64,000 bases of DNA from Snodgrassella alvi. GTDB lineage: Bacteria; Pseudomonadota; Gammaproteobacteria; Burkholderiales; Neisseriaceae. Positions 50,479 through 54,000 of the stretch are shown here, one piece after another. The position numbers were made by a program, and so were the translations under genes. How positions within the stretch are numbered: position 1 is the first letter of the stretch; each line of letters begins with the position of its first letter. A model generated the notes under the pieces. The model was given only the letters and a program-made list of their open reading frames with translations, did no database searches and was not told the origin of the DNA. Location of the stretch: assembly GCF_002777425.1 (NCBI RefSeq), contig NZ_MDVC01000002.1:1-64000 (forward strand). Direction: 5' to 3'.

Positions 50479-51252
50479 TTATATCTCTGTACTGCCAGCA
50501 GATATATCTGTTATTTGAATAGATTGGCGTTTGTGCCGGAAAAATTGCTGCAATAATTCTTTGGATTCAGCCGCCAGTACACCGCCCAGAATTGCGGTGT
50601 GCGTATTAAGCTGGCGGTTGGCAAATAAATTAATCACACTGCCAGCAGCACCGGTTCTGGTTTCAGCAGTACCATAAATTACTCTTTTCACTCTGGCCTG
50701 TATTAAGGCGCTGGCACACATGGCACAAGGTTCCAGAGTAATATATACATCACAGTTTTGTAAGCGATAATTGCCCAGCGTGCTACTGGCTGCTGCCAGT
50801 GCCTGAATTTCAGCATGGTGGCTGACATTATGGTCGGTAATACAGCGATTATAGCCATAACCAATAAGATTATTTTCGTATACCACAACTGCACCTACCG
50901 GCACTTCATTCAGTAGCTGTGCCTGCTGCGCTGCATGTAATGCCTGTTGCATCCAGTATTGCATGATTTTTGCAGACGGAAACAGGGCTACAGGTGGATG
51001 CTGCTTTATCTGTTGACGCCAAAATGTTTTCTCTTCGGCGCTAAAGCTCTGCGCGGTACGGTTTTCCACTAAAGCGATAAATTGCCATAACACGCTTTCA
51101 GTACTACTGGTGCTAATGTTTTTAAACTGTAAAAAAGCGGTAATAGCACCACGCTGCTGCAAATCTTCTACGCAATGTATGTCAAGCTGTTTAAGAATGG
51201 CTATGGTTTTAGGTGCCAGCGGTGGTGTTGTAAGTGGCGTATTCATAAGCAA
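50479..51252 (-). CDS. tadA: tRNA-specific adenosine deaminase with N-terminal TfoX_C-like domain
   Basis: Deaminates the wobble adenosine of tRNA-Arg to inosine. The C-terminal deaminase domain (about 105-250) carries the zinc/catalytic motifs HAEIQAL and PCAMCASAL. The N-terminal ~75 residues (LAPKTIAILKQLDIHCVEDLQQRGAI...) resemble the C-terminal helix-hairpin domain of TfoX; such extended TadA proteins are known in Neisseriaceae. Length 257 against about 160 for the plain enzyme. The first 57 or so codons are duplicated as a decayed copy at 53049-53214. Confidence 0.93.
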   Translation of the reverse strand: MLMNTPLTTPPLAPKTIAILKQLDIHCVEDLQQRGAITAFLQFKNISTSSTESVLWQFIALVENRTAQSFSAEEKTFWRQQIKQHPPVALFPSAKIMQYWMQQALHAAQQAQLLNEVPVGAVVVYENNLIGYGYNRCITDHNVSHHAEIQALAAASSTLGNYRLQNCDVYITLEPCAMCASALIQARVKRVIYGTAETRTGAAGSVINLFANRQLNTHTAILGGVLAAESKELLQQFFRHKRQSIQITDISAGSTEI

Positions 51253-51590
51253 AGAGAATGATTGATGCCTGTTATCCTACTATAAATCTGGCCAATCATG
51301 AAAAGGGAATTTGATATGTAGACGGTGTGATAATTACTGATCATCATGGTGGTTTGGGCGTGTGCTGGCTGAATATTATCTGATTCAGAAAATCAAGATT
51401 GTTTGCCTGATGCACCATGGCTAGCGCAAGCTGCCGGAAGGAGTACTGTAATATGTAATTGATTTGGCCGATACTGAGATTCAGGCCATATGACGACAAT
51501 TGGCCAGCAAGCAAAACGATCTAGAAAACAAGGATGATATGGTTTTGATTAATAATACCGGCCTAATGGAATTTAATGTACTGATAAGGC
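51080..51590. repeat. Left copy of a diverged ~510 bp direct repeat flanking bioB
   Basis: This segment holds the 5' part of tadA (intact), the intergenic spacer and the 5' part of an SDR gene (decayed). It lines up along its whole length with 53049-53560. The copies share stretches such as CTTCTACGC, CAAGCTGTTT, GAATTTGATATG, GGTTTGGGC and GAAAACAAG, with many substitutions and a few small indels. Confidence 0.85.
51316..51590 (+). pseudogene. Decayed 5' fragment of the SDR gene
   Basis: It aligns with the first ~92 codons of the intact SDR gene at 53284. The start region is GAATTTGATATG in both, but here the second codon is TAG and further stops and indels follow. Similarity fades after about 51590, so roughly 60 percent of the gene is absent. 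Being the inferior duplicate of a nearby functional gene, it is not expressed as a protein. Confidence 0.85.
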
Positions 51591-51802
51591 TAAAACAGCA
51601 CCACTTAACAAATTCCCGCCCATCAAAGAGGCGTGATTAAATCTATTCGGTAAAATTGTATTTTGTTTCCTTCTTCGTTTAGTACCTTGTAGAAATTTGT
51701 ATTACATCAGAATGATTAGCTAATTTTAAATAGTGATTGGCCATTGATTTTCACTCATGAATCTTCTGCTTTGCTTGATGAACAGGTAAATATAACTCGT
51801 GG
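51591..51802. other. Unassigned AT-rich spacer between the SDR fragment and bioB
   Basis: No gene or similarity to neighbouring sequence is seen. It may be further decayed sequence, or DNA that arrived with bioB. No clear terminator for the minus-strand bioB was found in it. Confidence 0.4.
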
Positions 51803-52852
51803 TTAAGCATTGGTACTATCGTTAAACATACTAGTTTGATCTTGCTCAATAATAGCTTGCTCTATAGCGGCTTGATGCACTTCATCGCCATAATCTTGTC
51901 GTGGTTCTGGCCTAATCCCTAATTTAATAAGTAATGCCTGATCTTTTTCTATCTGGGGATTAGCTGTTGTTAATAATTTATCTCCATAGAATATAGAATT
52001 AGCGCCTGCTAAAAAGGCTAGTGCTTGGGTTTGCTCATTCATTTGTTGCCGTCCTGCCGATAATCGCACATAGGATTTAGGCATCATAATACGGGCGACA
52101 GCAAGCATTCTGATAAAATCAAACGGGTCTATATCTGGTTCATTTTCCAGAGGTGTGCCTTTAACTTTAACTAAATTATTAATGGGAATGCTTTCTGGAT
52201 GTTCTGCTAAATTAGCTAACTGGATTAATAAATTAGCACGATCTTTAACTGATTCTCCCATCCCCAGAATACCACCTGCGCAAATTTTCATACCTGCTTC
52301 TCTCACATGAGCTAATGTCTGTAATCGATCACTGTAAGTATGAGTGGTGATGATATGAGTATAAAATTCTGGTGAAGTATCCAGGTTGTGATTATAGTAA
52401 TCTAGTCCGGCATCGGCCAAGGCATAGGCTTGATCTGGTGATAGTTTACCTAAGGTCATACAAGTTTCCATGCCTAATGCTTTCACACCCTTTACCATCT
52501 CTAAGACATAAGGCATATCTTTAGCCGTAGGATGTTTCCATGCAGCACCCATACAGAAACGGGTGGAACCTATTGCTTTAGCTGCTTTGGCTTTTTCTAT
52601 GACCTTTTGTACCTCAAGTAATTTTTCTTTATCTAATCCTGTATTGTAATGGCCGGACTGAGAGCAGTATTTGCAATCTTCCGGGCAGGCACCTGTTTTG
52701 ATTGATAATAAGGTTGAAACCTGTACCTCATTTGAATTGAAGTATTGTCGGTGTACAGTTTGAGCCTTAAAAATAAGATCATTAAAAGGTAATTGAAATA
52801 ATTTCATAACTTCAGGCAGAGCCCAGTCATGACGAATAGTGCCCAAGGACAT
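51803..52852 (-). CDS. bioB: Biotin synthase
   Basis: Radical-SAM enzyme inserting sulfur into dethiobiotin, the last step of biotin synthesis. The radical-SAM cluster motif [10 protein letters not shown] (about 53-62) is intact. [23 protein letters not shown] and the Arg-containing [10 protein letters not shown] supply the cofactor and second-cluster ligands. Start ATG at 52852 with AAAGGAAAC; an upstream ATG lacks support. Its 349 residues are normal. The other bio genes are not here. The gene is visibly richer in A/T than its neighbours and lies between two copies of a 510 bp repeat, both signs of acquisition. Confidence 0.95.
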
Positions 52853-53048
52853 AATAGTTTCCTTTAGTAGCAAGCTTGAGATTAGCAATACAACATAGTA
52901 TTAAATGCTATATAGCCAACCATTTTAAGTTGTAAAATCTACATGAAACGGGGATAGATTTACGGACGGATGCAGTTTTCTGTTTGTGCTATACTGTTTG
53001 TTATCTGAAGTTAAAATACGTCTGAATTGGTTTTCTCCCAGTACCAGA

Positions 53049-53214
53049 AATTGCGATAATACGCTATCAATTCTGAATATACTAATATTTTTTTAAATGA
53101 TAAACAGATTGTTTTGTGCCGCGCTGCTGTAAATCTTCTACGCTATATATCAAGCTGTTTTAGAATAGTTATGGTTTTAAAGGCCAGTGGTAGTGTAGTT
53201 ACCGGTATGTTCGT
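53049..53214 (-). pseudogene. Decayed 5' fragment of tadA
   Basis: On the minus strand this corresponds to about the first 57 codons of tadA (51080-51252), with words such as GTAGAAGATTTACAGCAGCG retained. The start codon position is changed, and indels (for example in the run of T at 53089-53095) destroy the frame. It lacks the whole deaminase domain. Confidence 0.8.
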
Positions 53215-53560
53215 CGGCCATGGATTTGCCTGATATCCAGTGTCACTCTACAAATCTGGTTAATCTTGAAAAAGGAATTTGATATGCAAAATTGTGTGAT
53301 TATTACTGGCCATAGTCGTGGTTTGGGCCGCGCTCTGGCTGAATACTATTTAGCTCAGGAAATCAGGGTTGTTGGCCTATCGCGGCATGGCTGGGACAAT
53401 CCGCCGGAACGATTACTGCAATATGCAATTGATTTTGCTGATGCAGAGGCGATGGCAACATTAGTACAATCAGCTAGCTGGCAGAATAATCTGGAAAACA
53501 AGAATGAAGTAATTCTGATTAATAATGCCGGGATGGTGGAACCAAATGCACTGGCCGGCC
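53049..53560. repeat. Right copy of the ~510 bp direct repeat flanking bioB
   Basis: Counterpart of 51080-51590. Here the tadA part is decayed and the SDR part is intact, the reverse of the left copy. Both copies are almost the same length (511 and 512 bases), which argues for a single duplication event, not chance similarity. Confidence 0.85.
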
Positions 53561-54000
53561 AGCAGGACTATGATGCAATTATCACAGCCGTAACGGTAAA
53601 TATTGCTGCGCCATTATTGTTAACCAATGCCGTGATTGCGGCTGCCACCAAAGCCGACATTCGTATTGCTCATATCAGTAGCGGCGCTGGCCGCCATGCG
53701 ATAGCAGGCTGGAGTGTTTATGGTGCTACCAAGGCTGCATTGGATCAGCATGCAGCGGTAGTGGCTGCTGAGAAGCATCCGCACGTGCGTATTGCCAGCA
53801 TTGCACCTGGGGTGGTGGATACGAATATGCAGCAGAATATTCGTTCTGCCGATGTAGAAAAATTTCCGCTGGTACATAAATTTATTAATTTAAAAGCGAA
53901 AAATCAGTTACAGAGTGCTGAAGATACGGCACAACAAATTGCTGCCATGATTGCAGCCGAAGATTATGGCCAACAGACTCAGCGTGATGTGCGGGAATAA
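53284..54000 (+). CDS. Short-chain dehydrogenase/reductase
   Basis: Classical SDR oxidoreductase of 238 residues. The dinucleotide-binding motif is TGHSRGLGRALAEYY (about 8-22) and NNAG lies near residue 84. The catalytic Ser is in HISSGAG and the Tyr-Lys pair in YGATKAALDQH. It is closest in style to sepiapterin/benzil-reductase-like members, but substrate is unknown. ATG at 53284 with AAAGGAATTTGAT is chosen. A decayed copy of its first third lies at 51316-51590. Confidence 0.88.
   Translation: MQNCVIITGHSRGLGRALAEYYLAQEIRVVGLSRHGWDNPPERLLQYAIDFADAEAMATLVQSASWQNNLENKNEVILINNAGMVEPNALAGQQDYDAIITAVTVNIAAPLLLTNAVIAAATKADIRIAHISSGAGRHAIAGWSVYGATKAALDQHAAVVAAEKHPHVRIASIAPGVVDTNMQQNIRSADVEKFPLVHKFINLKAKNQLQSAEDTAQQIAAMIAAEDYGQQTQRDVRE

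Follow-up and report, generated by a model that had tools for sequence, protein, structure and literature searches.

How did a lone biotin synthase gene come to lie between tadA and a gene for an SDR family oxidoreductase in Snodgrassella alvi, and what would the bacterium gain from it? Here, we present an analysis of this locus in a 64,000-nucleotide stretch of contig NZ_MDVC01000002.1 (the window), in which the gene order is tadA, then bioB, then SDR. We found that bioB stands between two direct copies of the tadA-SDR junction and that, judged by its phylogeny, it is foreign to the genus. We consider it fairly probable that one illegitimate event left a fragment with a promoter and bioB trapped at the joint of a short tandem duplication and that the gene was kept for dethiobiotin salvage.

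The DNA that runs from within tadA through the spacer and into the SDR gene is present twice, in the same orientation, with bioB in between. Each copy is ~610 bp long (left, ~50977-51585, with ends accurate to ~10 bp; right, ~52949-53555; both delimited by blastn, profile, and MAFFT). The two copies are identical in 412 of 600 columns by blastn (E 3e-85) and in 417 of 609 columns by MAFFT (176/265 in the tadA part, 45/69 in the spacer, and 196/275 in the SDR part), and their divergence is ~31%. Dinucleotide shuffles, which set the chance level for repeat similarity, did not reach the repeat score in the window on either side (0/300 each), ruling out chance similarity of the two segments. On the tadA side, protein and profile matches carry the repeat to approximately codon 90; past codon 90 of tadA or of the SDR gene, scores in six genomes fell within the range of the shuffles.

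The outer genes of the locus are open reading frames (ORFs), namely, tadA on the left (50479-51246, minus strand; NCBIfam TadA above cut-off, and Pfam) and the SDR gene on the right (53284-54000, plus strand; homologue and profile matches). The inner pieces are dead: every one of the three frames read contains at least three stops. SDR' in the left copy (51316-51585, plus strand) covers the first ~90 SDR codons and is 52-53% identical at the amino acid level to SDR residues 13/14-90/91; tadA' in the right copy (52949-53212, minus strand) covers the first ~90 tadA codons and is matched by TadA residues 2-90 in three pieces by tblastn and with 133.5 bits by nhmmer. An original prediction, made from the window alone, had described diverged tadA-SDR segments in the same orientation around bioB, with the left tadA and right SDR genes intact and the other two pieces dead, and our alignments, shuffles, and reading frames agree. 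It had placed the repeats at 510 bp with ~1.46 kb between them; the repeats exist, but the unique DNA between them is ~1.36 kb (51586-52948) and the copies are longer. It had also attributed the dead pieces to reciprocal decay of redundant gene ends, and this part is not supported: SDR' and tadA' both stop close to codon 90 of the respective gene and were therefore probably truncated when they arose, so their decay needs no explanation. In the window, a TfoX C-terminal-like domain (PF04994, residues 10-74, E 7e-8) precedes the deaminase in TadA, as it does in the TadA homologue of another genus (G015; E 7e-7), and the tadA part of the duplication corresponds roughly to this extension.

Besides bioB (51803-52852, minus strand), the unique DNA holds no other ORF of at least 60 amino acids, and none of the six inverted-repeat pairs that we found brackets it. 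The lack of a transposase ORF and of a bracketing inverted repeat, together with a duplication as long as ~610 bp, argues against insertion of an insertion sequence (IS) or transposon, as the original prediction had also held. The flanks of the insert, including the 3' flank of bioB (51586-51802), are no more similar to the remaining parts of tadA and the SDR gene than shuffled DNA, and the joints are too decayed to be read.

Relatives preserve the site before and after this change. The sample comprised 14 genomes of the genus, including the window genome, with one genome per species; G005 and G007 are single contigs, while G006 (60%) and G003 (86%) are incomplete. In G011 and G012, tadA and the SDR gene are adjacent and single copy, with their matched parts 103 and 105 bp apart and no bioB between them. 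Direct copies in the window and a single target in these relatives are as expected of a tandem duplication by illegitimate recombination. They also bear out the proposal in the original prediction that bioB entered a plain tadA-SDR junction in an event that also duplicated it, including its expectation of one uninterrupted junction in relatives without bioB (2/2). bioB lies between tadA and the SDR gene in all 11 full loci that carry it; in a twelfth bioB-bearing genome, G004, the contig ends inside bioB, beside tadA.

We searched each gap of these loci with profiles built from the functional tadA and SDR copies, using 300 shuffles per gap and swapped profiles as a control. Both fragments are clear in six of the 11 full loci (G000, G010, G008, G009, G002, and G003), where all 12 gaps beat all 300 shuffles and the swapped profiles gave no match. 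SDR' ends at bp 270, 270, 270, and 258 of the SDR gene in G000, G010, G008, and G009, respectively. In the same four genomes, tadA' extends to approximately bp 250-275 by profile and to 271, 312, 314, and 250 in pairwise alignments; both fragments are shorter in G002 and G003. The dead stretch has received inserts in two genomes. In G008, the left SDR fragment is split by a ~1.2-kb IS-like insert (L063:5337-6546) with an HTH_Tnp_1 ORF and a short ORF that is weakly rve-like, below the Pfam cut-off; in G009, a DUF1706 (PF08020) gene lies between the SDR fragment and bioB (L066:2763-3293).

Where did bioB come from? The gene in the window encodes a biotin synthase of 349 amino acids (TIGR00433, 410.7 bits; cut-off, 225); the tree marks it as being of the Pseudomonadaceae type, and its substitution pattern marks it as maintained. 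We scanned 84,980 species, one genome per species, and used the best 80 of at least 593 candidate rows; records close to the window's own genome were possibly omitted. Among the matches listed, the closest 40 loci comprise 38 from Pseudomonadaceae, one labelled Pantoea, and one gammaproteobacterial metagenome-assembled genome, at 75-78% identity. The 11 sequences from the genus form one clade (Shimodaira-Hasegawa-like approximate likelihood ratio test [SH-aLRT], 99) in a 112-row tree, and this clade stands next to those 40 sequences (joint support, 99). The native, family-type bioB (G012 and G015) sits on a distant branch and is only 56-58% identical, which excludes relocation of bioB within the genome. 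On this phylogenetic evidence, bioB at this locus is a foreign, horizontally acquired gene of the Pseudomonadaceae type. The GC content of the bioB loci is 0.38-0.40 in the 11 genus members vs 0.60-0.64 in five loci of the Pseudomonas group. The synonymous divergence (dS) of bioB is about equal to that of its neighbors, with values that are saturated for distant pairs; bioB was therefore inherited since its capture in an ancestor, and a recent spread inside the genus is rejected on the same grounds.

The extent of the captured piece can be approached from both sides of bioB. In 39 of the 40 Pseudomonadaceae-group loci, we found an operator-like box, TTGTAAACC-N(13-16)-GGTTGACA, with at most three mismatches in 17 positions. 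We refer to it as a BirA box. In the genus, the best-matching box is 91-93 bp away from the start of bioB in 11 of 11 loci, which are related and do not count as 11 independent observations. It has two mismatches in G009 (0/300 shuffles), four to five in six others, and six to seven in four, including the window, where ATGTAGATT-N14-GGTTGGCT (52914-52944, minus strand; 6/17 mismatches) is probably the decayed operator-like box of the donor; by itself, the window's box is not above shuffles, and it is clear in G009. Detectable tadA' begins 93-97 bp from the bioB start in G000, G010, and G008, i.e., 1-5 bp past the box, and 118-122 bp from it in G009, G002, and G003. That tadA' starts so close beyond the box suggests that the captured DNA probably comprised hardly anything beyond a promoter, bioB, and a short 3' flank. 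No bioF remnants of the kind found downstream of bioB in L109, L112, and L113 were seen by eye in three frames of the 3' flank in the window.

Based on these observations, we propose the following sequence of events. A short Pseudomonas-like fragment carrying bioB with its own BirA-type promoter and operator would have been captured between tadA and the SDR gene in a common ancestor of 12 of the 14 genomes sampled, with one end joined near SDR codon 90 and the other near tadA codon 90. The simplest course would be that the two joints formed on different sister chromatids during replication, making the fragment the joint of a ~610-bp tandem duplication. A foreign fragment that joins two different points of sister chromatids would be expected to yield exactly this product, a repeat, an insert, and a repeat, with no transposase. 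Insertion and duplication are most simply one event because the contiguous tadA-spacer-SDR junction could be copied whole only before it was interrupted; this is an argument and not a measurement. The outer tadA and SDR genes would have stayed whole, while the inner pieces, fragments from birth, decayed, and their decay would also have removed the homology needed for excision of bioB.

Several observations weigh against this scenario. Five of the 11 full bioB loci (G005, G007, G013, G001, and G006) have no clear repeats. Just upstream of the SDR gene, a right-side remnant of the tadA start is weak in G005 (0/300 shuffles), G006 (2), and G001 (6) and unsupported in G007 (21/300) and G013 (17/300), with 12 and 10, respectively, for the control profile. 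On the left, the profile search gave no match in G005, G007, G001, G006, and G004, and that in G013 spans only 16 positions (7/300 shuffles). When the five loci were compared pairwise, only G005 stood out (left, 2/300; right, 13/300). Microhomology at the junctions is not readable after the heavy decay. The operator-like box does not outperform shuffles in G000 (111/300), G010 (92), G001 (249), and G006 (259), with intermediate values elsewhere, and no Pfam helix-turn-helix (HTH) match was found at the N-terminus of the biotin ligase in G005. Lastly, in a tree of the copies, the duplication is not placed earlier than the divergence of the lineages without clear repeats. Analyzed separately, the tadA pieces are nested with the window's sub-clade together with G007, G013, and G004 (93/97), and the SDR pieces are dispersed, with those of G002 and G003 beside G007 and G013 (86/91).

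The timing of the duplication bears directly on the strongest alternative. The 12 bioB-bearing genomes form a clade (100/99) with an internal branch order that differs between gene sets. In the copy tree, which includes 11 of them (all but G004), the six fragment pairs cluster (80/79; five of the six, 98/97). The tree did not reject an origin older than the bioB-bearing lineages in it (p value of the approximately unbiased test [p-AU], 0.448), nor did it reject one grouped with the window's sub-clade (p-AU 0.373); dating from the divergence of the copies is unreliable for this reason. The separate trees of the tadA and SDR pieces favor either a younger duplication or gene conversion at an early stage. 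A younger duplication would fit a history in two steps, in which the common ancestor of the 12 genomes received bioB by a clean insertion, or by one inside the SDR gene, and the repeats arose later in the window's sub-clade by recombination with uninterrupted junction DNA of a relative without bioB. The five loci without clear repeats and the nesting of the tadA' pieces within the window's sub-clade point in this direction, as does the left/right divergence of ~31%, which by a rough estimate is not above the depth of that sub-clade (dS 0.5-0.7 to G009). However, such a history needs two illegitimate joints with outside junction DNA, one on each side of bioB, and it does not predict the weak collinear right-side remnants in G005, G006, and G001. 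In addition, the older origin is not rejected, and early gene conversion would yield the same tree. We regard two separate steps as unlikely and retain capture in the joint of the duplication as the better account.

What has kept bioB in place? The ratio of nonsynonymous to synonymous divergence (dN/dS) is 0.03-0.10 in six pairs, indicating purifying selection, and the CxxxCxxC, YNHNLD, and SAGR motifs are kept in all 11 BioB proteins of the genus. The upstream enzymes are another matter: only G012 has convincing bioF, bioA, bioD, and bioC genes, which form a cluster. For bioD, G012 has the only match of any kind among the 14 genomes. For bioA, G012 alone is over the cut-off of 405 bits, and the others reach at most 328 bits; the 324-bit match in the window genome, the one match below the cut-off that was scanned, is a PRK07480 aminotransferase and not bioA. 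For bioF, G012 comes nearest to the cut-off of 426, with 389.7 bits, but no genome reaches it, and the remaining scores do not exceed 29.8 bits; for bioC, none is over the strict cut-off (G012, 160.8 bits; others, at most 78.3). A biotin ligase is present in all 14 genomes and BioY in 12, with no BioY match in G012 or in the 60% complete G006. In G005, the ligase is fused to a type III pantothenate kinase (L231). In the genomes with the acquired bioB, the gene set is that of BioB-only (A1) genomes: a functional-looking BioB, no convincing BioF, BioA, or BioD, a ligase, and usually BioY. Most likely, the lone BioB makes biotin from dethiobiotin taken up from outside, and the gene would have been kept by selection for this conversion in a cell that lacks the upstream steps. 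As far as sequence can tell, the native-type bioB is gone and the lone bioB is foreign, which is an unusual origin for the BioB-only state. That the captured BioB performs a reaction other than the conversion of dethiobiotin to biotin strikes us as quite improbable. The apparent absence of the rest of the pathway would allow it, and the accessible part of one study (PMC9561691) names an unknown BioB reaction as one possibility in BioB-only bacteria; the full-length match to the BioB equivalog, the retention of the three motifs checked, and the presence of BioY and ligase all speak against it.

The mechanism offered in the original prediction, integration by one homologous crossover of a circular or concatemeric molecule carrying the junction and bioB, gives the same geometry of repeat, insert, and repeat but is very unlikely, since it needs a donor in which the tadA-SDR junction of the recipient is already joined to a bioB of Pseudomonas type, an extra and unobserved step for which no donor is known (plasmids and other collections were not searched), and since GCCGTCTGAA, the Neisseria-type DNA uptake word, occurs 0 times in the 64-kb window (the commonest 10-mer there occurs only 6 times), which speaks weakly, and against that uptake route only.

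A broader history joins these threads, and we put it forward tentatively, as somewhat short of probable. The genus would have lost every step of biotin synthesis, and a Pseudomonas-like donor would later have supplied the final one alone, so that dethiobiotin scavenging would be a gained trait instead of what erosion left behind. The capture of promoter and gene in a sister-chromatid duplication joint would still be legible, and decay of the repeats would have locked the gene in place. G011 had been considered as proof that the pathway was lost first and bioB came later; we dropped this argument because its BioY adjoins other genes than that of the window genome, so that its loss may be independent, and because the trees do not fix the order of G011 and G012. 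BioY lies between hslU-like and glnK-like genes in the window genome (L240:5624-6214) and, with a different length, beside a clpB-like gene in G011 (L239:5222-5743), the neighbors having been named by eye; the two are perhaps separate gains.

Genomes with BioB only tend to be interpreted as having half-eroded pathways. The locus described here suggests that a lone bioB can instead be a new acquisition, which would alter the interpretation of partial vitamin pathways, and it points to dethiobiotin as a traded nutrient in the community of this bacterium. With an empty site, a filled site, and a decay series preserved in related species, it also opens to study how a single foreign gene enters a chromosome without a mobile element.

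Within the titles and abstract beginnings available to us, most subscription papers being outside reach, there was no report of an acquired lone bioB in Snodgrassella, and the word "biotin" is absent from a study of stingless-bee symbionts (PMC10128065). The closest parallels in function, each known to us from the accessible part of the source, are the A1 variant of the biotin pathway with only BioB and BirA, described in 169 genomes (PMC6593275), and the "desthiobiotin auxotrophs," bacteria retaining bioB that overcome auxotrophy on the precursor, which is stated to have been shown experimentally (PMC9561691). As in our genomes, these have the last enzyme, the ligase, and usually BioY only, and salvage of dethiobiotin is proposed; in contrast, the lone bioB is treated there as a leftover after loss, whereas here it is an acquired gene of the Pseudomonadaceae type and the native type is gone. 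The biotin synthase of the soybean cyst nematode is likewise discussed with horizontal transfer from bacteria, albeit into a eukaryotic recipient (PMC6909392, as far as accessible). With regard to mechanism, the portion available of a report on tandem duplication by illegitimate recombination around a transferred gene (PMC11111574) describes a direct duplication that lacks long end homology and is linked to a new gene, as here; there, however, a silent gene was activated by promoter capture in laboratory strains, while here a foreign piece, seemingly with its own promoter region, lies in the joint. In Streptococcus pneumoniae (PMC3784515, seen in part), short incoming DNA bridges sister chromatids at two places during interchromatid integration, and the resulting merodiploids carry a tandem duplication, which is the geometry that we propose for bioB. 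The mechanism validated in that species uses homology and repeats and gives duplications of ~100-900 kb, although one 3.3-kb duplication without flanking repeats is also mentioned; in Snodgrassella, the duplication is ~0.6 kb, with no visible homology.

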